Below, piece by piece: positions 361 through 18,363 of a DNA stretch of 24,160 bases. A model generated the notes under the pieces. It worked only from the letters and a program-made list of their open reading frames with translations. It was not told the DNA's origin and did not search any database. Location: the IMG/VR virus record IMGVR_UViG_3300048597_000086, positions 1 to 24,160 of that record, one strand, 5' to 3'. The DNA comes from a virus. The translations under genes were made by a program, and so were the position numbers. Positions within the stretch are counted from its first letter, which is position 1. Every line of letters begins with the position of its first letter.

Positions 361-869
361 GCTGCGGCGGCCTCAATGGGCACGATGTCGGCGTACAGGA
401 TTAGCTGCGTCCGCTGGTCCCTGGTTACGGTCATCCGCCACGGAGCGCGAGGCACCGCGGCCTGCTGCGGCACGTTCACGGTAACGCGAGGTGCCTCGAC
501 GTTGACCGGCGTCGGCTCGACGTTCACGGTCGGCCCTTCGACGGTGATCTGCGGCGGGGTCTGCTGCGGCACATCGACGTTAAAAGTCGGAAAGACTCGA
601 ACCTCGGCGGCAGGCGGCGCGGCGACGTTGACCTCGGGCGCTGCGACGTTGATCTGCGGCGCATCGGCCGCTGCGACGCTGACGGCCGGCGCCGGCAGTT
701 TCAGCCCGGCCAGGGCCTGCACGAAGCCGGTCAGCAGCGCGGCAACATCGAGCGGCTCGGGCGCCTGCCGCGCTTCGGCGGCCTGCGCGGCGGCGAGCGC
801 CTGCTGTGCAGTGGCGAGCGCCTTCGCGGCCAGCGCCGAGGTCAGAAGCTGGTCTTCAGCCGCCGCCAT
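357..869 (-). CDS. Ala-rich phage structural protein with P-x-V-x-V repeats
   Basis: A 170-residue protein of unrecognised family. Residues 1-40 are almost pure Ala/Gln/Glu/Leu and should form a helix or coiled coil. Residues 62-135 are a run of about eight short units of the form P-x-V/I-x-V (for example APQINV, APEVNV, PQITV, GPTVNV, TPVNV), which would suit an extended beta structure such as a fibrous or beta-prism shaft. Residues 143-166 form a separate C-terminal beta segment. It lies between the portal and the fibre-like gene and overlaps both (14 bases with the portal, ATGA with the fibre gene), so it is probably a virion or virion-assembly component. Function is not known. A low-complexity disordered linker is an alternative reading. 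Confidence 0.7.
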   Translation of the reverse strand: MAAAEDQLLTSALAAKALATAQQALAAAQAAEARQAPEPLDVAALLTGFVQALAGLKLPAPAVSVAAADAPQINVAAPEVNVAAPPAAEVRVFPTFNVDVPQQTPPQITVEGPTVNVEPTPVNVEAPRVTVNVPQQAAVPRAPWRMTVTRDQRTQLILYADIVPIEAAAA

Positions 870-2325
870 TGCTCACTCCCAGGCTGCGCAGGATCGCCTC
901 GCGAACAGGTGCGTTCCGATCGGGGAGCGGCACCACGTTACCGCCGCCCTCTGGCGTGCCATCGACGCCGCGCTGATCTTCGTCGAGCGCTTCCATCAGT
1001 TCGTCGAGCTTCTCGTCTGCAAGCCCGCCGAACTGCAATTGAACAATGCGCTTCTGCTGCTCGACGATCACCGGCCGCGGCATGGCGGCCTGCTGCATCT
1101 CCAGCAGGATCTGCATCTCGACCTCGACATCGGCGATGTCGTAGTCGTCTGCCCAGGCGTTATCCGGCGCCGTGGTGAGCTGCAACCACTTCTGCGACAG
1201 CGCCCAGGCGCGACGCTCCAGGCCGTCGACGCGGTTCGCGCATGCGACCAAGCTCGCGTTGATCGTCTGGAATCGCATCTTCATCGCGACGCCCGACTCC
1301 TGCTGATTGATCGTCGCGACATTGAGCCCGATCTCGTCGATCTGCAACCGCATTTTCTCGATGCGCTGCAGGTACGTCGCGGCCGGGCCGTCAGGCGGGG
1401 CGATGAATGCCGGCGTGCTGCCCGAGTGCACAAGCATGTTCGCCGTGCTGACGGTCTGCCCCGCGGTCTGCGCAACGGCGAGCTTTTGCTCGCTGTTCGT
1501 GCCGTCCTCGACCTGCATGGTCAGCAGCGAGAACGTCTGCCCGCGCAGGATCTCGTCTAGCTCGCTGTCGAGGTTGAAGAGGCGTTTCGACAGATCCGCG
1601 ATCGCAGCGAACGGGCCGAAGTGCGGGAAGTCGCCGCCCTCGGTGCAGATCAAGAGCGGGCACTCGCCGAGCGGGTGATTGCCCTGCGCCAGCGCCTGCG
1701 ATGTGCCGGTCGCGTCTTTCTTGGTCGCGGCCCATGAGGTGCGATCGAAGCGCCAGGTGCAGGCGATGCGCTCGCCGGCGGGGCTGGTCCAGTTGCCAGC
1801 AAACTCGACCCATGCGAACTTGCCGTCGTCGCCGAGTTCGTAGTCGGTCACGTCCTCGGGCTTGACCATCGACCAGTAAGGCGCGACGCGCTGCGCGATC
1901 TGCGCGGCCTGGTTTGGCGCACGATCGGCCGGCGCGGCGTCCATGTCGACGAGCAGCAGCATCGTCCCGCGCGCCTTGAACTGGATCAGGAACTGGGCAA
2001 AGAACTCGTCGAGGCTGTTCCCTTTGCCGTCGATGTCGTCGGCCATCGCCTGATAGAGCGGGTCCTCGATCGTGCGCGTCGGCGGCTTCGTCTGCAGGTA
2101 GCCGACGAATCGACTGCAAGCCTGCATCAGCGGCGAGGCGTAGAAGGCCAGCTCGCAGCGGCGGGCGAATTTCGCATCGCTCTCGCGAGGGTAGCGGATC
2201 AGGTAGCTAGTGCCGGCCAGCGTTGCCAAGCCATCGCCATCCGTCGACACGATCGGGCGGAATGGCCCGTCGCCCGCGAGTGCGTGGCCGATGAACTTGA
2301 AGCGGGAGGCTGCTGTGTTGGACAT
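856..2325 (-). CDS. Portal protein (DUF4055-like)
   Basis: A 489-residue protein with the sequence character of phage portal proteins of the DUF4055 type. The N-terminal part has the 'SYLIRYPRESDAKFARR' and 'YASPLMQACSRFVGYL' segments, followed by an acidic 'LLLVDMD' strand. The central and C-terminal part is helical, including 'LNLDSELDEILRGQ' and 'LQRIEKMRLQIDEIGLNV', as expected for the stem and crown. Portals form the dodecameric ring at one capsid vertex through which DNA is packaged by terminase. Length is within the usual 400-550 range. The ATG at 2325 lacks a strong Shine-Dalgarno. It is oddly placed: the large terminase is about 13 kb away and a plus-strand structural block lies between them. 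Assignment rests on remembered family character, not a search. Confidence 0.75.
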   Translation of the reverse strand: MSNTAASRFKFIGHALAGDGPFRPIVSTDGDGLATLAGTSYLIRYPRESDAKFARRCELAFYASPLMQACSRFVGYLQTKPPTRTIEDPLYQAMADDIDGKGNSLDEFFAQFLIQFKARGTMLLLVDMDAAPADRAPNQAAQIAQRVAPYWSMVKPEDVTDYELGDDGKFAWVEFAGNWTSPAGERIACTWRFDRTSWAATKKDATGTSQALAQGNHPLGECPLLICTEGGDFPHFGPFAAIADLSKRLFNLDSELDEILRGQTFSLLTMQVEDGTNSEQKLAVAQTAGQTVSTANMLVHSGSTPAFIAPPDGPAATYLQRIEKMRLQIDEIGLNVATINQQESGVAMKMRFQTINASLVACANRVDGLERRAWALSQKWLQLTTAPDNAWADDYDIADVEVEMQILLEMQQAAMPRPVIVEQQKRIVQLQFGGLADEKLDELMEALDEDQRGVDGTPEGGGNVVPLPDRNAPVREAILRSLGVSNGGG

Positions 2326-3158: not shown

Positions 3159-4319
3159 ATGGCAAACGTACTCGACGACCTGGCCGCAGACATCTACCGC
3201 GCTGCGGACATCATCGGCCGCGAAGCGGTCGGCTTCATTCCGTCCGTCACCCTGAACACCGGCAGCGAACGCGTCGCTGTTGGGCAGACCGTGCGCTCGC
3301 ACTTCACGCGCGCCGCGACTGTCGGCACCCTCGCGCCCTCGATGACGATCCCGGAAGGCACCGACCAGACCGTCGACACGAAGACGCTGACGCTGACCAA
3401 GCAGCGCGGCGTGCCGATCCCCTGGACCGGCGAGGACATCCGCTTCGTGAACGGCGGCGCCGGCTGGACGACCATCTACGGCGACCAGATCGCCCAGGCG
3501 ATGCGCGCCATCGTGAACGAGATCGAGGCTGACCTCGCGACCGAGGCATACCAGAACGCGAGCCGCGCAGTCGGCGCCGCCGGCACCACGCCGTTCGGCT
3601 CGAACACCGACGTGATCGTCGACGCCCGTCAGGTGCTGTTTGACAACGGCATGCCGGTAACGGATGGCCGCATGTCGCTGGTGCTGGGCTCACTGGCCTC
3701 CAACAAGCTGCGAAAGCTGACCGGGCTGCAGAAGGTGAACGAGTCGGGCGACACTCGCCTGCTGCGCCAGGGCGTGCTGATCGACCTCTTCGGGGCGATG
3801 ATCAAGGAGTCGGCGCAGGTTCAGTCGCATACCAAGGGTGCAGGCACCGGGTATGACTTCGTGACGGCCGGTGAGGCGATCGGGCAGACGACTCTCAGCG
3901 TCGAGGGCGGCACGGTGAACGTGACCGGCATCAAGGCCGGCGACGTGATCACGCACGCGGCCGATGCGGTGAACAAGTACGTAGTTAACACTGGCATCAC
4001 TGCAACCAGCGGCGACATCATCATCGGCTCGCCTGGCCTGAGGATCGCTGGCGCCGACGCCAACGAGATCACGATCGGCGACAGCTACGTTGCGAACGTT
4101 CTGCTGCACCAGAACGCGGTCGAGCTGGCAATGCGCGCCCCTGCGAAGCCTGCCGGCGGCGACGCCGCGGTCGACGTGATGACCGTTCAAGACCCGCACT
4201 CTGGCCTGGTGTTCGAGGTGTCGGTCTACAAGGGCTTCAACAAGGCGATGATCTACGTCGCTGCGGTCTGGGGCAAGAAGGCGTGGAAGCCTGACGGCAT
4301 CACTATCGTGATGGGCTGA
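3159..4319 (+). CDS. Major capsid protein, P22 coat (gp5) type
   Basis: A 386-residue coat protein. It opens with LDDLAADIYRAADIIGREAV and GFIPSVTLNTGSERVAVGQT, followed by an E-loop-like stretch with KTLTLTKQRGVPIPWTGEDI. These are characteristic of the P22-type coat family, which has the HK97 fold plus an inserted beta-rich I-domain. The segment from about residue 235 to 310 (GDVITHAADAVNKYVV... then ITATSGDIIIG) fits that insertion. The C-terminal part (LVFEVSVYKGFNKAMIYVAA) is the expected closing domain. It is the main shell component and follows the scaffold after 36 bases, with GAGG about a dozen bases before the ATG. P22-type coats also occur in siphoviruses, which fits the long-tail genes downstream. 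Confidence 0.92.
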   Translation: MANVLDDLAADIYRAADIIGREAVGFIPSVTLNTGSERVAVGQTVRSHFTRAATVGTLAPSMTIPEGTDQTVDTKTLTLTKQRGVPIPWTGEDIRFVNGGAGWTTIYGDQIAQAMRAIVNEIEADLATEAYQNASRAVGAAGTTPFGSNTDVIVDARQVLFDNGMPVTDGRMSLVLGSLASNKLRKLTGLQKVNESGDTRLLRQGVLIDLFGAMIKESAQVQSHTKGAGTGYDFVTAGEAIGQTTLSVEGGTVNVTGIKAGDVITHAADAVNKYVVNTGITATSGDIIIGSPGLRIAGADANEITIGDSYVANVLLHQNAVELAMRAPAKPAGGDAAVDVMTVQDPHSGLVFEVSVYKGFNKAMIYVAAVWGKKAWKPDGITIVMG

Positions 4320-5631: not shown

Positions 5632-6153
5632 ATGCCATTTGACCCCGACAGATTCGAGCAGGCAAAGCTGATGCCGCGCACGCGCACGGTCAGCGTGGAG
5701 GCGCTCGCGCCATTTTTCGACGACGGCGAAAAGCCCGAATGGACCGTTCGCGGGTTGACGGCGAACGAGCTGCATCGCGCGCTCGAGGCCGGGAAGCGGC
5801 AGGGCAGCGTCGAGGCGATCGTCGCAGCGCTGGCGACCAAGGCAGACCAGGCCGAGGCGATCCGCAAGGCCATCGGGCTGACCGCCGACACACCGGGCGA
5901 GATGGCGAAGCGCCTGGAGATGCTGACCCTCGCATCGGTCGCGCCGCGGATCGAGCTACCGATCGCGGTCAAGCTGGCCGAGGCTTTCCCCATCGAGTTC
6001 CTGACGCTCACGAACACGATCAGCGAGCTAACCGGACAGGGCGCCGACGTGGTAAAGCCCGCCGCCGCCTCGCAGCAGATGCCCAGCTCTTCGCCTGCAT
6101 GCGAATCGCCGAGCAGCGAGGCGGCTACCTCTACGAAGTCAGGCCCGACGTGA
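5632..6153 (+). CDS. Tail assembly chaperone (lambda gpG-like, unshifted product)
   Basis: A 173-residue protein with start ATG at 5632 preceded by GAGGA at 5623-5627. An in-frame ATG at 5596 lies inside the terminator loop and is not credible as a start. The protein is mostly helical (LTANELHRALEAGKRQGSVE, then MAKRLEMLTLASVAPRIELP) with a C-terminal 'AVKLAEAFPIEFLTLTNTIS' helix, typical of the chaperone that coats the tape measure before tube polymerisation. Beyond about residue 145 the sequence becomes Ser/Pro-rich low-complexity, a sign that the reading frame used biologically switches near there. It is placed correctly between tube and tape measure. Confidence 0.75.
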   Translation: MPFDPDRFEQAKLMPRTRTVSVEALAPFFDDGEKPEWTVRGLTANELHRALEAGKRQGSVEAIVAALATKADQAEAIRKAIGLTADTPGEMAKRLEMLTLASVAPRIELPIAVKLAEAFPIEFLTLTNTISELTGQGADVVKPAAASQQMPSSSPACESPSSEAATSTKSGPT

Positions 6154-6239
6154 TCCCGCAGGGCTTTATGACCGACGAAGAACTCGCGCTGTGGGCCGCT
6201 TACTACGAACGCAGGGCCAAGGAATCAAAGCATGGCTGA
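5632..6239 (+). CDS. Tail chaperone GT-type fusion made by -1 frameshift
   Basis: A second open frame, -1 relative to the chaperone, continues to 6239. Its C-terminal ~45 residues (from LFACMRIAEQRGGYLYEVRP to WAAYYERRAKESKHG) look like a genuine acidic/aromatic folded segment, yet it lacks a convincing start. The -1 overlap holds GGTAAAG at 6051-6057, read G-GTA-AAG in the first frame; this differs by one base from the lambda slippery heptamer GGGAAAG, and AAG to AAA re-pairing is favourable. Slipping there gives about 202 residues with junction ADVVK-ARRRLAADAQLF. Known family behaviour: a few percent of ribosomes shift in lambda-like phages. The exact slip site is inferred. Confidence 0.6.
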
Positions 6240-7914
6240 CCTGAGCAAGACCGTCGCGATCATCTTCCAGGGGCAGGACAACGCGAGCGGGGTCAGCGAC
6301 AAGCTGGCCGACAACCTGAAGAGCGTCGGCACGGCCGGCAGCGCCGCGACCAAGCAGGTCGACGACCTGGCAAAGAGCACCGAGCGCCTGGGGGACACCG
6401 AGGGCTCGGTCGTCTCGCTGTCCAACGCGATGAAGGCGCTTGCCGCCTCGCTGGTGTTCAAGTCTTTTATCGATGCAAACATCGAACTTGAGCGCTTTGA
6501 GCTGGGAATGACGCAGGTCACAGGGTCATCTCAGGCCGCGGGGAAAGAACTTGAATATGTGCGCGGCGTGGCCGATCGCCTCGGCTTAGATGTCGGAGAA
6601 GCCGGGCAGGCGTGGCTAGGGCTGTCAGCGGCGACGAAGGGATCGGCGCTGGAGGGCGAAGGCGCTCGCGCTATCTTCGAGGCGATCAGCGGTCAATTCA
6701 AGCTGCTAGGGAGGTCATCGGCTGACGTTGCCGGCGCTCTGGTGCAGGTGCAGCAGGGCATAAGTAAGGGGAAGTTTGAACTCGAAGATTTGAAGTCGAT
6801 CGCGGAGCGCATGCCCCGCTTTTTTGATGCCTTTGCGGAGTCGCTCGGCAGGACGACGCCGGAACTGTTCAAGCTGATTTCCGAGGGCAAGATCGGCGCT
6901 GTCGAATTTTTGAGGTTTGCCGAGAGCATAAATGCTGGCATCGGTTCGCTGCGGATCGAAGGATTCGAGGCAGACCTCGCCCGCCTACGCAACGAGATCA
7001 AGGCAACATTCACAGAACTCGGGCAGGCCGGCGCGTTCGACGCGCTGACAAAGGGGCTTCAAGTCGCAACGGCTGCGATCGTCGGAGCCGTCGCTTATTT
7101 CAAACTTCTGGGCGAGACGTGGGGCAACGTGCTTGGCGCGATTGTCAGCGGCGATTTTTCGGAGCTGGGCGGGTCTATAGACGCCTCGCTACAAAAGGCG
7201 GCGGAATCAACCCGCAAGGCCCGAGACGCGATGCTCGGATACAAAGAGGCGACCAGCCAGGCGAGCAATGCCAACGCGGCGGCGAGCAAAGACCTCGACC
7301 AGATGATTGCCGGCATGGGGCGAAACGCTGATGCCCAAAAGATCGCAGAGGATGCAACTAAGAAGGCGAGCGAATCCTCGAAGGCAGCAGCGAAGGCGCT
7401 AGCCGATGAGACGAAAGAGCGCCAGCGCGCCGAAGAGGCAGCGCAAAAGTACGCGCTCGAACTGGAAAAGCTTGCCAGCAATGAACGAATCAAGTTCATC
7501 GAGGCCAAGGTCTCGCTTGACATAGCGAACGTCCAGGCCAACGCCGAGAAGGTCATCGCCGCTTTTGACTCGATCAACACGAGTATCTCCAGCACTGGCG
7601 ACGTGCTCGGCGAACTCTTCGGCCTGTTTAACAACCTGTCCAGCCTAGACAGCAGCGCGCGGAATGCATTGTTCGCCCAGATCGACAAGGAGAACGCGGC
7701 GCGCGAAAAGGCATTCGAGCTACAGAAGGCGCTGACCGAGGCGCAGATCGAGAACCTGCGCGCACAGACGCGCCAGATCGACAAGGGCGACGCGCTGATC
7801 AAGATCGAGGGCGCGGGGCTGCAGCCTCACCTTGAGGCGTTTATGTGGGAGATCCTGAAGGCGATTCAGGTCCGCGTGAACAACGACGGACTCGCCCTAC
7901 TGCTCGGGACCTGA
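6232..7914 (+). CDS. Tape measure protein
   Basis: A 560-residue, Ala/Glu/Lys-rich, mainly helical protein starting with an 8-base overlap (ATGGCTGA) with the shifted chaperone product. Residues about 60-240 (MKALAASLVFKSFIDANIEL, YVRGVADRLGLDVGEAGQAW, FELEDLKSIAERMPRFFDAF) match the conserved N-terminal domain of tape measure proteins. Residues about 325-430 form a long coiled-coil-like stretch (SQASNANAAASKDLDQMIAG, AEDATKKASESSKAAAKALA). At roughly 1.5 angstroms per residue the predicted tail is near 85 nm. It sets tail length and occupies the tube lumen. Between about 6470 and 6960 it uses ATA, TTA, AGT and AGG codons more than its neighbours, hinting at a mosaic segment. Confidence 0.88.
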   Translation: MADLSKTVAIIFQGQDNASGVSDKLADNLKSVGTAGSAATKQVDDLAKSTERLGDTEGSVVSLSNAMKALAASLVFKSFIDANIELERFELGMTQVTGSSQAAGKELEYVRGVADRLGLDVGEAGQAWLGLSAATKGSALEGEGARAIFEAISGQFKLLGRSSADVAGALVQVQQGISKGKFELEDLKSIAERMPRFFDAFAESLGRTTPELFKLISEGKIGAVEFLRFAESINAGIGSLRIEGFEADLARLRNEIKATFTELGQAGAFDALTKGLQVATAAIVGAVAYFKLLGETWGNVLGAIVSGDFSELGGSIDASLQKAAESTRKARDAMLGYKEATSQASNANAAASKDLDQMIAGMGRNADAQKIAEDATKKASESSKAAAKALADETKERQRAEEAAQKYALELEKLASNERIKFIEAKVSLDIANVQANAEKVIAAFDSINTSISSTGDVLGELFGLFNNLSSLDSSARNALFAQIDKENAAREKAFELQKALTEAQIENLRAQTRQIDKGDALIKIEGAGLQPHLEAFMWEILKAIQVRVNNDGLALLLGT

Positions 7915-12413: not shown

Positions 12414-13234
12414 TGATGGCCGCACTGGAAGCGGCGCGCGATGCGCTGGCCGCATGCGCCTCGATCCTGACCGCGCAGGCTGCGACGCCGCCGACAGGCT
12501 CGTGCAAGGTCGGGCTTGAGCCGAACATCAGCCCGGCGAGCTATCCCATGATCCGCGTCGTGCCGTCGCGCATCGTGCCGGGCAAGCCCTACGCCGGGCG
12601 CTCGATAGAAACGCTGCTGTACTTCGGAACGCAGACGGCGACCTCTGTCGGCATGGAAACGGTTTACGAGAACCTTTCGACGCTCGAAGGTGAGATGCTG
12701 GCCGTGCTGAAAACGCTCGGCGCGCGGTACATCGAGACGATCACGGACGAGGACCGCCTCGACGCCTACAAGCTGATGGTCATTCGCTGCGAGCTGCCCG
12801 ACCCGCCCGCGGCGCTGGTGCGTTGCCAGATCAACGCGGCGAGCCTGGCGCAGTCGCTGACATCGACGCCGGCCGCGCTGGCGCCGTTCACCGTGCTCGC
12901 GCAGGAGGCCGCGCCGGCAGACTGGACGCCGACGCTCGCCTCGGGATCGATCTCGCGCCTGCTCAATGGCGCCGCCAGCACGACGACGCGGATCAACGCT
13001 GCCGGTTCGGTATCGGGGCCTGATGGCGCCGCGGTGCTCGTGGCGCTGCATGCCGGCGGCGTGCAGATCGGCAACGCGGTACAGGTACTGACGACCGGAG
13101 CCGGCGAGCAGGTGGCGTTCGAGGTGTCGGCCGTCGCCGTGGATTCTGGGACAGTGGCGATCGACCTGCGCGCGTCAGCGGATCAAGACGCGGCGTTCGC
13201 GTTCGCGGATTTGCGGATCACGGCAGCGGGTTGA
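12413..13234 (+). CDS. Tail-terminator-like protein fused to a beta-sandwich domain
   Basis: About 273 residues. The first ATG that overlaps the upstream stop is at 12413; a GTG at 12410 and another ATG at 12416 are also in frame. Residues about 1-135 (ALEAARDALAACASILTAQA, SYPMIRVVPSRIVPGKPYAG, FGTQTATSVGMETVYENLST) have the helix-strand pattern and length of small tail-terminator or minor tail proteins. Residues about 165-274 are a separate beta-rich module with repeated strands (VSGPDGAAVLVALHAGGVQI, EQVAFEVSAVAVDSGTVAID), like a jelly-roll or TNF-type decoration domain. The fusion is unusual for a tail terminator. The 3' end overlaps the convergent nuclease gene by 17 bases. Confidence 0.55.
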   Translation: MMAALEAARDALAACASILTAQAATPPTGSCKVGLEPNISPASYPMIRVVPSRIVPGKPYAGRSIETLLYFGTQTATSVGMETVYENLSTLEGEMLAVLKTLGARYIETITDEDRLDAYKLMVIRCELPDPPAALVRCQINAASLAQSLTSTPAALAPFTVLAQEAAPADWTPTLASGSISRLLNGAASTTTRINAAGSVSGPDGAAVLVALHAGGVQIGNAVQVLTTGAGEQVAFEVSAVAVDSGTVAIDLRASADQDAAFAFADLRITAAG

Positions 13235-13763
13235 TCCTGCGACCGATGCTCGATATGTTTCGCCACGGGTTTGGCGGCCGACTTGGCTGGAGCCAATCTA
13301 GCAGCGAGGAAACCATCCATCGGGGCGAAGCCTTGCCAAGCATGAATGGTGCGGGCATGGCCCCGGTTTTCACCAGAGCAGACAGTTCAGCCTTATTCAA
13401 GCCGAAAACACTGCAAACTGTTTCTGGTTTGAGGCACTGAAACTCTGCGAACCTTTCTAGTTCCGCGACCGCCTTGCGTGTAGTCTCAGAACAAAAATTC
13501 TTTCGCGCTTTCACTGGATCACTTTTAGGTGGCAGATCACGAAGGCGAATGTTATACAATGGGCGCTCTGCGCGGACTGCGAGGCGTTCCGCATCTAGTG
13601 CTTGTTCGCGAGTTTGAAAATGTTCGATAGTCACACGCGCGATTGACGCAGCCCAGGCCGAGTTGCCGGAGTGCTCCGATAATCGCCGCATTGCAGACAG
13701 CGAGACGCCGACATAAAGCAATCTGCCGGTTTTGTCAAAGTGACGGTAAAGGCTTGTTTTCAT
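13218..13763 (-). CDS. GIY-YIG endonuclease with C-terminal HTH
   Basis: A 181-residue protein. The N-terminal GIY-YIG fold is visible as S-L-Y6, then Y17-V18-G19 (YIG-like), R26/R27 and H31, followed by the 'EQALDAERLAVRAERPLYNI' helix with candidate metal-binding Glu59 and Asn71. These are the positions expected for catalysis. Residues 112-160 (VCSVFGLNKAELSALVKTGA and then PRWMVSSLLDWL) resemble an AlpA/excisionase-like winged HTH, giving a nuclease with its own DNA-targeting module, as in homing endonucleases. Counted GC at 13441-13560 is about 46%, against about 73% for 14281-14340 in the next gene, a strong sign of recent transfer. It lies at the convergent boundary between the two operons. 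Confidence 0.8.
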   Translation of the reverse strand: MKTSLYRHFDKTGRLLYVGVSLSAMRRLSEHSGNSAWAASIARVTIEHFQTREQALDAERLAVRAERPLYNIRLRDLPPKSDPVKARKNFCSETTRKAVAELERFAEFQCLKPETVCSVFGLNKAELSALVKTGAMPAPFMLGKASPRWMVSSLLDWLQPSRPPNPWRNISSIGRRINPLP

Positions 13764-15207: not shown

Positions 15208-15464
15208 CACACCGGCCCGGCCATGTCGAACGCCATGTCGACGACGAGCCACGCAGTCGGCTGCGAGACGCCGAACCGGCGCTGAATCACGCCGCTGACC
15301 TCGCGCCGCGGCAGGCCTGCGCGCAGCAGATCCATCGCTGCCTTCACGCGCCGGGCGCGCTCGCAGGCCTGCGGGTCGATGGCGAAGACGACTTCCAGCA
15401 GATCCGCGGGCGGGCGCTCTGCCGGCGCTGGCGCATGGCGCACCCTGGCGAGAACGGCGCTCAT
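15207..15464 (-). CDS. Small HTH-like protein after large terminase
   Basis: An 85-residue protein overlapping the terminase stop by ATGA. Residues about 28-75 (DPQACERARRVKAAMDLLRA then RREVSGVIQRRFGVSQPTAW) look like a helix-turn-helix, with GVSQPTAW as the recognition helix. It may be a DNA-binding accessory of packaging or a regulator of the operon. No family name is given with confidence. Confidence 0.65.
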   Translation of the reverse strand: MSAVLARVRHAPAPAERPPADLLEVVFAIDPQACERARRVKAAMDLLRAGLPRREVSGVIQRRFGVSQPTAWLVVDMAFDMAGPV

Positions 15465-16876
15465 AGCCCGGCCACCTTCGCGCCTGCCGGGCGCTGGTCG
15501 ACGACGCCGAGCAGGTTCGCGAATGCCCTGCTTAGGCCGTCGATCTGGTCGTCGTGCTTCCCGTTCGGGAAGGCGCGCATTTCGTCGATCAGCGCCGCAT
15601 TCCAGTCGCCGGCCAGCATCAGGACGTTGCCGACGTTGACCTGCGAGGCGAAGGGCTCGGCCCGCGTGATCTTGTCGCCCGACTCCGGGCTGCTGTGCAC
15701 TGAGAAGCCGGCCAGCTTGCGTGTCAGGTCTAGGACCTGCGTCTTGCCAGCCTGCCCCGGGTCTTGGGGTATGGATATGCGCACGTTCACTCCGTCACGG
15801 ACTGCGGTGTTCGTGAGCGCCCGGTCCCGCTCGTCGGGGCCGGCGCGCAGTCGCACCATGTCTGCAATGAGGAAGCGTCCGTCCCGGAGCTTGCCCAGCT
15901 TTGGACCTGCAGTGTAGTCGCCTGCCGTGGTGCTTGCAAAGTCCCAGGCCCGGCACCACTCGACGCCGCCGGCCGGAATGGCGCCGACGATCTGCAACTG
16001 GTCGGGCTTGAAGAGGGCAGAAGTCGGCGGAACGGGCGTCTGCCGGTACTGCCCGGCGAACGTGTACGGGCTCGCCTGCTCCATGCGTTCGAGATCCGCC
16101 GCGCTGTGCTTCTCGGGCCACAGCGGCAGGCCGGCGGCCTCGTCGTGCCAGGCGCTCAGGCACAGATGCTCCCATGCCTCGCCATTGCCGCCGCCGAGCA
16201 GCCAGCCGGCGAGATCTTCTTCGTGCAGGCGCTGCATGATCAGGACGATCGGCGCCTCGGGGCTGTTCTTCCGGCTTTCCAGCGTGTTCTGGAACCAGTC
16301 GATCACGCCCTTGCGCACGACATCAGATCGCGCCTCGTCGGCCTTGTGCGGGTCGTCGATGATGATCGCGCCGCCGAATCCGGCGCGCATCTTGCCGGCG
16401 CCGAATCCGGTGATCGTGCCGGCTGCGCCCGCGGCGTAGACGACGCCGCCCTTCGTCGTGCGCCAGTGATCCCGCGCCCGGCTGTCGTCGGCGACCACCA
16501 CGTCGGGAAAGATGTCGCGGTATGCCTCGTGCGTCGTCAGGTCGCGCACGGCGGCGCTGTTGTTCGCGGCGAGCGTCGCGCTGTAGCTGGTGTGAATGAA
16601 CTCGGCGTCGGGGCAGTGCCCGAGCGCCCAGGCAATGAAGTTGACGACGGCAAGCTCGGTCTTCGAGTACCGCGGCGGCACGTTGATGATCAGCCGGCGG
16701 CACTCGCCGCGATAGACGCGCATCAGGGCGTCGCAGATCGCGCGATGGTGCATGGCGCGCTGCCAAGTGAAGCCGCGGCGCTTCTGGAACATCCAGCGCG
16801 CGAAGAAGTACAGATCCGCCCGCGCCAGCTCGGCGGCGACAAGCCGCTCGCGCAGGGCGTGGTCGGGTGCCGTCAT
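15461..16876 (-). CDS. terL: Large terminase (packaging ATPase-nuclease)
   Basis: A 471-residue terminase large subunit. The N-terminal ATPase has a Walker-A-like PPRYSKTE at 67-74, a Walker B IIIDDPH at 171-177 and a QRLHEEDLAGWL segment after it (coupling region). The C-terminal RNase-H-like nuclease shows AWDFASTTAGDYTAG around residue 310-324, and acidic residues in NGKHDDQIDGLSRAFANLLG near 438-457. The protein threads DNA into the prohead through the portal and cuts the concatemer. The ATG at 16876 overlaps the small terminase stop (ATGA). The catalytic residues expected for an active enzyme are present. There is no portal gene next to it, which is unusual. Confidence 0.93.
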   Translation of the reverse strand: MTAPDHALRERLVAAELARADLYFFARWMFQKRRGFTWQRAMHHRAICDALMRVYRGECRRLIINVPPRYSKTELAVVNFIAWALGHCPDAEFIHTSYSATLAANNSAAVRDLTTHEAYRDIFPDVVVADDSRARDHWRTTKGGVVYAAGAAGTITGFGAGKMRAGFGGAIIIDDPHKADEARSDVVRKGVIDWFQNTLESRKNSPEAPIVLIMQRLHEEDLAGWLLGGGNGEAWEHLCLSAWHDEAAGLPLWPEKHSAADLERMEQASPYTFAGQYRQTPVPPTSALFKPDQLQIVGAIPAGGVEWCRAWDFASTTAGDYTAGPKLGKLRDGRFLIADMVRLRAGPDERDRALTNTAVRDGVNVRISIPQDPGQAGKTQVLDLTRKLAGFSVHSSPESGDKITRAEPFASQVNVGNVLMLAGDWNAALIDEMRAFPNGKHDDQIDGLSRAFANLLGVVDQRPAGAKVAGL

Positions 16877-17379
16877 GTCTTCGATGCGATCTCAAGCGCC
16901 AGCGCGCGGAACTCGGCGGGCGTCATGCTCACGGCGGCAATGCCTAGCGGCGACTTCGGATCGCCCGCGATGGTCGTGCGGTCGCCGTAGCGGTTCGGGT
17001 CCCATTTCGCCAGCAGTTGAAGCCGCGTCCAGATCCGCAGCTTGCTGCGCTGCACGTTCTCGCCGTTCGCGCGCCAGCCGGCCTCCTCGCCGTGGTTCGC
17101 CTCCATCCAGTCGTTGCGCGCGTCGTCGGCGATCTGCAGCGTGCTGGCCGCGATGGCATCGTGCCCCATGACGCGCGCGCGCGCGAAGGCGGCAGAAAAG
17201 TCGCGGCGCTTTTCCGTCCAGTCGTTCACCGTGCGAACCGCCGGCATGCGCTCATCGCGGCACACCGACTGCAGCGTTTCTCCCTCGCCGATGCGCCGGC
17301 AGATTTCCGCGGCGACGGCGTGCGAGTACAGCGACGGCCGACCGCGTGGCCGCTTTGCGACTGCCTTCGCCTTCGTCAT
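16873..17379 (-). CDS. terS: Small terminase, Sf6-like
   Basis: A 168-residue protein. A longer frame starts at 17499, but the first 40 residues there are Cys/Gly-rich shadow of the PEP-CTERM gene; the ATG at 17379 overlaps that gene's stop (ATGA) and has GGAGG about 10 bases upstream. The product begins MTKAKAVAKRPRGRPSLYSH, with an AT-hook-like KRPRGRPS, then an HTH (EICRRIGEGETLQSVCRDER, then VRTVNDWTEKRRDF) and C-terminal 'LRIWTRLQLLAKWDPNRYGD', the pattern of Sf6-type small terminases. It binds the packaging site and recruits the large subunit. Together with the P22-type coat this suggests a P22/Sf6-like packaging ancestry. Confidence 0.85.
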   Translation of the reverse strand: MTKAKAVAKRPRGRPSLYSHAVAAEICRRIGEGETLQSVCRDERMPAVRTVNDWTEKRRDFSAAFARARVMGHDAIAASTLQIADDARNDWMEANHGEEAGWRANGENVQRSKLRIWTRLQLLAKWDPNRYGDRTTIAGDPKSPLGIAAVSMTPAEFRALALEIASKT

Positions 17380-17696
17380 GCCCTCGGCCTCCGCGCTTTC
17401 GCTGCCAGGACAGCAAGCCCCGCAGCCCACAGCCACCACGCCGCAGGCTCGGGCACAGGCGACGCAGGCGCCAGGGGGGGCAGGATCGCAGCCCTGCACC
17501 CTTCGCCGAGGATGTCGCAGCGCCAGCCAGGGCCGATGAAGTGCTCGAAGAACGCGACGTCGCTGGCGTCATACCGGCCCCAGGACGTGCCGGCGGCCAG
17601 ATCCTCGAAGCTCGGCCCCTGGAAGTCGCCTTGTGTTGCCCAGGCCTGCACCGGCAGGCACAGCGCGAGGGCGGCGAGGATGGCGGCGCGGGTCAT
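17376..17696 (-). CDS. Secreted protein with PEP-CTERM sorting signal
   Basis: A 106-residue protein coupled to its neighbours by ATGA overlaps on both sides. Residues 1-20 form a signal peptide (MTRAAILAALALCLPVQAWA, cleavage after A-W-A). The mature part is short, with Cys60 and Cys67 flanking IGPGWRCDILGEGCRAAI. The C-terminus has the complete tripartite exosortase signal: V-P82-E83-P84, a hydrophobic helix 85-99 (AAWWLWAAGLAVLAA) and a basic tail 100-106 (KARRPRA). In bacteria this signal directs sorting by exosortase to the cell surface or matrix. A phage-coded example, between a membrane protein and the terminases, is unusual. Its role is unknown; a two-membrane anchor such as an inner spanin-like protein is less likely given the precise PEP motif. 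Confidence 0.75.
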   Translation of the reverse strand: MTRAAILAALALCLPVQAWATQGDFQGPSFEDLAAGTSWGRYDASDVAFFEHFIGPGWRCDILGEGCRAAILPPLAPASPVPEPAAWWLWAAGLAVLAAKARRPRA

Positions 17697-17821
17697 CGCC
17701 GCGCCCCTGTGACCCAGGCAACGCCGACGAGCAGCCAGCGCGCACCAAGCAGGAGCGGCATGACGGCGGCGAATACCGCCACGGTCAGCAGCAGGCGGGA
17801 AAGTTCTAGCATCAGCCGCAT
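17693..17821 (-). CDS. 42-residue membrane protein before the PEP-CTERM gene
   Basis: A small gene below usual size cut-offs. The ATG at 17821 has AAGGAGG (complement of 17829-17835) 7 bases upstream, and its stop overlaps the PEP-CTERM ATG (ATGA). A second ATG at 17812 also overlaps the NinG stop (TGATG). The product MRLMLELSRLLLTVAVFAAV continues PLLLGARWLLVGVAWVTG and ends ARR: two hydrophobic stretches with positive ends, probably two membrane passes. A role together with the PEP-CTERM protein, or as a holin-like protein, is possible (inference). Confidence 0.6.
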   Translation of the reverse strand: MRLMLELSRLLLTVAVFAAVMPLLLGARWLLVGVAWVTGARR

Positions 17822-18363
17822 GCCTTGGCCTCCTTGAGTTTCAGTCGGTAGCGGTCGCGGATCTCGCGCAGGTCAGGGATCGAGAACTTGCGCAGCGCCT
17901 GGTCGGCCTCCAGCGCCTCGACGGCCGGCAGACCGATCCGCGCGATCAGCCCGAGGCGGTAGTCGACCGCCCGGCCGGCGCCGTAGCGGTTGCACTGCTT
18001 GAGCTGCCGGTGCGCGTTGTCCTCGTGGAATCGCAAATGCGGCGCGCTGCCGGTGCTTCGGTAGTGGCCGCAGTCCCAGACGCCGCCGCGCGATTCGCTG
18101 TCGGAGAACTTGCCGCAGCAGATGCAGGGACGGGCCTGGTCGCGGTGGCGAATCCAGGCATTGAATGCGGCTTGGGCCTCCCCCAGCCACTGCCCTCGGG
18201 GCTTCGCGGCCTCCTGCCGTCGCTTGAACTCGGCGCGCTCGGCCTTGCGTGCGGCCTTGATGGACTTCGCGGCACAGCGCGGGCTGCATACCCGGTGAAG
18301 CGTTGACCGGCTCATGAATTCCTTGCTGCATACCGCGCACTCGGCCATCGGCTCGGGTTTCAT
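17812..18363 (-). CDS. ninG: NinG/Rap-like recombination protein
   Basis: A 183-residue protein. Residues 9-30 form a CxxC...C...C zinc finger (Cys9, Cys12, Cys26, Cys30). Residues 60-125 carry the NinG core: AAFNAWIRHRDQARPCICCG, then DCGHYRSTGSAPHLRFHEDN and HRQLKQCNRYGAGR, an HNH-like His/Cys/Asn arrangement. Lambda NinG (Rap) is a structure-specific endonuclease acting on recombination intermediates, especially branched and Holliday-type DNA, and promotes phage recombination. Its place in the replication operon fits. The ATG overlaps the upstream stop (ATGA). Confidence 0.9.
   Translation of the reverse strand: MKPEPMAECAVCSKEFMSRSTLHRVCSPRCAAKSIKAARKAERAEFKRRQEAAKPRGQWLGEAQAAFNAWIRHRDQARPCICCGKFSDSESRGGVWDCGHYRSTGSAPHLRFHEDNAHRQLKQCNRYGAGRAVDYRLGLIARIGLPAVEALEADQALRKFSIPDLREIRDRYRLKLKEAKACG

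Follow-up and report, generated by a model that had tools for sequence, protein, structure and literature searches.

The question raised by this locus is whether a gene lying within the terminase operon of a phage encodes a genuine substrate for a bacterial exosortase and, if so, what such a protein would do for the phage. The window, that is, the whole stretch of DNA analysed, comprises the 24,160 bases of contig IMGVR_UViG_3300048597_000086, in which genes for a P22-like coat protein, portal, tape measure, head morphogenesis and Cro/CI-type HTH proteins are present, a set indicating a tailed, probably temperate phage. Its layout is an unusual mosaic: the genes from terminase to portal run opposite in direction to the coat/tail module, the portal (856–2325, minus strand) and coat (3159–4319, plus strand) genes are divergent, and a GIY-YIG domain protein, perhaps a homing endonuclease (13218–13763, minus strand; PF01541, 23.2 bits), is encoded where the two opposing modules meet.

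The gene in question occupies positions 17376–17696 of the minus strand and is embedded in a series of overlapping genes on that strand. Upstream lies the NinG/Rap recombination endonuclease (17812–18363; PF05766, 167.5 bits; phrog_171), the end of which is overlapped by an ORF for a 42-aa hydrophobic membrane protein (17693–17821) with no match among Pfam and PHROG profiles. Downstream are the Sf6-type small terminase subunit TerS (16873–17379; PF20901, 116.6 bits; phrog_1482) and the large subunit TerL (15461–16876; phrog_38, 347 bits), which also overlap each other. The gene had been described in the earlier note as coupled through ATGA overlaps to a small membrane protein on one side and to terS on the other, and both overlaps were located, at 17693–17696 (shared by the 42-aa ORF and the start of our gene) and at 17376–17379 (shared by its stop and the terS ATG). 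No promoter-like site was found between 15 and 21 kb of the contig, and the sole terminator-like site in that interval is inside terL. At the three codon positions the gene has a GC content of 0.70/0.63/0.83, close to the values for NinG, TerS and TerL, a coding signature consistent with a translated gene.

The 106-aa product (MTRAAILAALALCLPVQAWA, followed by TQGDFQGPSFEDLAAGTSWGRYDASDVAFFEHFIGPGWRCDILGEGCRAAILPPLAPAS PVPEPAAWWLWAAGLAVLAAKARRPRA) begins with a signal-peptide-like segment (residues 1–20, MTRAAILAALALCLPVQAWA; 17637–17696, minus strand), called by eye and hydropathy, with a predicted signal peptidase I site after A-W-A (residues 18–20). It ends in a PEP-CTERM sorting signal (residues 80–103, PVPEPAAWWLWAAGLAVLAAKARR; 17388–17459, minus strand), its tail consisting of PEP at 82–84, a hydrophobic stretch at 85–99 and basic residues at 100–106. 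The PEP motif, hydrophobic stretch and basic residues lie at the positions given in the earlier note, which had also named the A-W-A cleavage, and hydropathy reveals no transmembrane segment between the N-terminus and the tail. The 59-residue exported part contains two cysteines (3.4%), 3.4% threonine and 0% asparagine. The CGG AGG codons of the R-R pair in the tail double as the GGAGG Shine-Dalgarno sequence ahead of terS; some of the tail's basic character may therefore reflect that second use. An AlphaFold model of the single sequence had a mean pLDDT of 45.7, too low for use.

Whether the C-terminus can be called a sorting signal depends in part on the model employed. The full exosortase signal claimed earlier was upheld by Pfam PF07589 (24.2 bits, above the gathering score of 20.7, E = 3.4e-5) but not by TIGR02595, which in a six-frame search reached 14.4 bits, under its cut-off of 16; chromosomal PEP-CTERM copies in hosts of related prophages scored 20–34 bits with the latter model. 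Because of this miss we file the protein as PEP-CTERM-like, with a marginal signal, rather than as a certain family member. PF07589 itself proved specific: it had no match in 14 control genomes, and among 12 hosts of related prophages it was absent from eight and present in 11–62 copies in each of the other four, exactly the four in which exosortase (PF09721) was found. As an empirical null we used 4118 distinct genes from 240 loci related via TerL or NinG, of which 38 encode a C-terminal transmembrane segment with a basic tail; PEP preceded that segment in none of them (0/38). Both the specificity of PF07589 and this null argue against a chance motif, and the signal is genuine but weak.

With the PEP-CTERM/exosortase (EpsH) system the protein shares the PEP motif, hydrophobic helix, basic tail and N-terminal signal peptide, the lack of a transmembrane segment between the two ends, and a sequence that is otherwise unrelated. 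It differs in being phage-borne, very short, encoded in a translationally coupled operon and sub-threshold with TIGR02595. Low cysteine and raised threonine, serine and asparagine have been reported for the family, and the typical gene forms a single-gene operon with a sigma-54-linked upstream site (Haft et al. 2006, PMC1569441), whereas the present protein has cysteines and is not enriched in threonine or asparagine, and no sigma-54-linked site was found near its gene. C-terminal matches of 21.0–25.4 bits to NCBIfam NF038129, NF038119, NF038120 (from residue 26) and NF038126 are far under each cut-off, and membership in these families was rejected.

TerL relatives nearest in named genomes are mostly from Burkholderiales, and the host of the phage is probably betaproteobacterial. 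The best of them (75%) belongs to Aquariibacter albus, the genome of which has 11 PEP-CTERM matches together with exosortase matches. The exosortase matches (G017 C6:5715–6472) are divided between two overlapping frames, which may reflect a frameshift, a pseudogene or an assembly error. Since other near-relative hosts have no exosortase, the exosortase status of the phage's own host is not safely inferred from its relatives.

The earlier note had looked to conservation of the same gene beside terS for support, and no such conservation emerged. No relatives of the 106-aa protein were found in phage records or viral contigs, and 399 Burkholderiales genomes yielded no confident relative beyond the PEP tail. 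L380, a short chromosomal PEP-CTERM protein, was considered as a homologue and set aside, its 33% match offering nothing convincing outside the signal. TerS scans with a single sequence and with a profile gave nothing usable. Fetched flanks of TerL and NinG relatives held no PEP-CTERM gene except in L118, which had itself been found by motif. Three phages encode NinG together with a same-family TerS, and in these the slot is filled by other small genes (a 36-aa transmembrane protein plus a 49-aa ORF in L285, a 74-aa ORF in L305 and a 59-aa transmembrane protein in L328), none of them with a PEP-CTERM match. The slot is therefore variable among relatives, and the gene is best described as accessory.

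Accessory envelope genes of phages are well represented by lambda bor and lom, which are morons active in lysogenic conversion. The present gene resembles them in encoding a small exported protein in a late or packaging region and in that close relatives (L285, L305, L328 and the TerL and NinG relatives) lack it at the corresponding position. In contrast to bor and lom, its product bears an exosortase-type C-terminal signal and not a lipobox or beta-barrel, and no promoter or terminator of its own was seen.

Pattern scans of IMG/VR produced further candidates for phage PEP-CTERM genes, cited here only if identified phage genes lay nearby, as others could be host flanks; all those named pass PF07589. 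Several are close to terminase genes. In L128 the order is NinB, small membrane proteins, PEP-CTERM, HNH, TerS and TerL, while in L388/G432 an ATGA-coupled PEP-CTERM gene is followed by a 51-aa transmembrane protein, a 65-aa lipoprotein-like ORF, one small ORF and TerL. L389/G434 has a PEP-CTERM gene (6058–6702, minus strand), a GC-rich hairpin after it, a putative TerS ORF with no PHROG match, a small ORF and TerL, and this gene-plus-hairpin arrangement is moron-like. L390/G453 has a PEP-CTERM gene upstream of TerL, with a small ORF preceding TerL, and in L118 the gene sits beside relatives of this phage's NinG and of phrog_12600, but on the opposite strand. A PEP-CTERM gene within about 4 kb upstream of TerL on the same strand occurred in 3 of 12 TerL-positive contigs against some 0.6 expected, a suggestive enrichment given that the expectation is a hand estimate from contig sizes. 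A tblastn search of phage records with a bare PEP-CTERM consensus returned no match and carries little weight, the query being repetitive and possibly masked.

Other such genes adjoin lysis genes. Those of L361–L364 (L361:660–1079, L362:5001–5420, L363:25–444, L364:2730–3185) and L108 end one operon and converge on endolysin genes, accompanied in L361–L364 by spanin-like genes. The L361–L364 products (139–151 aa) have an N-terminal transmembrane segment and a Pro-rich middle. The genes of the close relatives L088 (11186–11602, minus strand) and L108 (2548–2973, plus strand) encode 138–141 aa, are ATGA-coupled upstream and lie near lysis genes. In the related phages L391 (6047–6646) and L392 (6456–6995), different PEP-CTERM genes take the same place, flanked by a large gene of the tail region on one side and by lysis (endolysin) genes on the other, and lie on the strand opposite to these neighbours. 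A 95.5-kb phage contig with a tail sheath gene (L091/G430) has two PEP-CTERM genes, at 48756 and 81312.

An N-terminal transmembrane segment with a basic Pro/Gly-rich middle is common to the proteins of L361–L364, L128, L388, L418 and perhaps L088/L108; similarity scores, computed with no low-complexity correction, are suggestive of mutual homology among them. With the 106-aa protein, those of L361–L364, L128, L388 and L418 share small size, phage context and the PEP-CTERM tail, but the relation is in the tail alone, and no homology to it outside the tail was recognisable in any of the phage PEP-CTERM proteins found. Comparison of L088 with L108 gives dS 0.444 and dN 0.020 (dN/dS ~0.05, a sign of strong purifying selection), based on 37 synonymous changes and 6 nonsynonymous ones, of which 10 and 1, respectively, fall in the tail; for L361 against L363 the tail counts are 10 and 5. 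This silent excess suggests that purifying selection maintains at least two phage PEP-CTERM genes, tail included. Together with the occurrence of non-homologous PEP-CTERM genes next to terminase and lysis genes in other phages, this softens the refuting weight of non-conservation at our locus. Recurrence and the two selected gene sets suggest that phages make use of the host PEP-CTERM pathway. A more specific proposition, that several unrelated lineages among the phages of exosortase-bearing bacteria repeatedly hijack exosortase with PEP-CTERM envelope modifiers or decoys, some of them specific to phages and with the tail under purifying selection, the 106-aa gene among them, is held tentatively, at somewhat less than an even chance.

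For the gene itself the reading we prefer, at roughly even odds (about 0.5), is a genuine phage accessory protein, routed via the host exosortase, that alters the cell envelope during infection or lysogeny. The protein would be made with the NinG-terS-terL operon, exported by Sec and cut by signal peptidase; its PEP-CTERM tail would retain it in the inner membrane until host exosortase removed the tail and the exported part of about 60 aa was released or attached in the periplasm, on the outer surface or in the matrix. The envelope would thereby be changed, for example against superinfection. Export, exosortase processing and an effect on the envelope or on exclusion are steps that we infer, and the roles put forward earlier (surface alteration, a block to superinfection, lysis) are guesses. 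Pointing towards this reading are the signal architecture, the PF07589 match and its specificity, the coding signature, two-sided coupling, the 0/38 null, recurrence and selection in other phages, and the PEP-CTERM proteins and exosortase matches of Aquariibacter albus. It is weakened by the TIGR02595 miss, by the want of relatives, by phages of the same synteny that do not have the gene, by the atypical composition of the exported part and by an operon that is not of the single-gene sigma-54 type.

That composition, with two cysteines, little threonine and no asparagine, would also be compatible with a role in lysis or as a decoy. The protein may be a membrane-anchored periplasmic one that works independently of exosortase, for example by assisting lysis or the 42-aa protein, with the PEP tail as a mere anchor. 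In lambda-like phages, lysis genes are located between NinG and terS, the very position seen here, and coupling to the 42-aa protein, the two exported cysteines, the sub-threshold TIGR02595 score and the lysis genes adjoining other phage PEP-CTERM genes are all in keeping with such a role; this is nonetheless rather unlikely, as PEP at such spacing was seen in none of the 38 comparable C-terminal-anchor genes and selection conserves the tails of other phage PEP-CTERM proteins. Alternatively, a short abundant substrate might occupy or block exosortase and strip the host of surface proteins or matrix, aiding release or adsorption. The brevity and unusual make-up of the exported part would suit a decoy, as would the small size and Pro/Gly-rich low-complexity middles of other phage PEP-CTERM proteins, but with up to dozens of substrates per host high expression would be needed, and we consider this distinctly unlikely.

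A host PEP-CTERM gene might have been captured recently as a passenger with no phage function: such proteins abound in plausible hosts, the gene is an orphan and relatives do not have it. Against this stand an intact frame fused by ATGA on both sides, with no promoter or intergenic remnant, and purifying selection on other phage PEP-CTERM genes, making a passenger very unlikely. Chance resemblance, in which an ordinary small exported protein has an anchor after Pro-Glu-Pro and a basic tail set in part by the terS Shine-Dalgarno sequence, would account for the TIGR02595 shortfall and the dual use of CGG AGG; we judge it extremely improbable in view of the PF07589 score, the null set and a VPEP-TM-RR order and spacing that match the family.

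In the open-access literature we found no report of PEP-CTERM proteins in phages, in agreement with the statement in the earlier note that no description was established; virus-borne TIGR03118 proteins with a putative exosortase-interaction domain receive a passing mention in one source (PMC11003980). The kind of signal is already known, while in that literature we found no description of its placement in a phage operon or of its recurrence in phages. If phages do supply exosortase substrates or decoys, infection would be tied to the control of surface and matrix in environmental bacteria, whose flocs, biofilms and cell surfaces are shaped by PEP-CTERM proteins, and the phage proteins would offer small natural substrates for the study of exosortase action.
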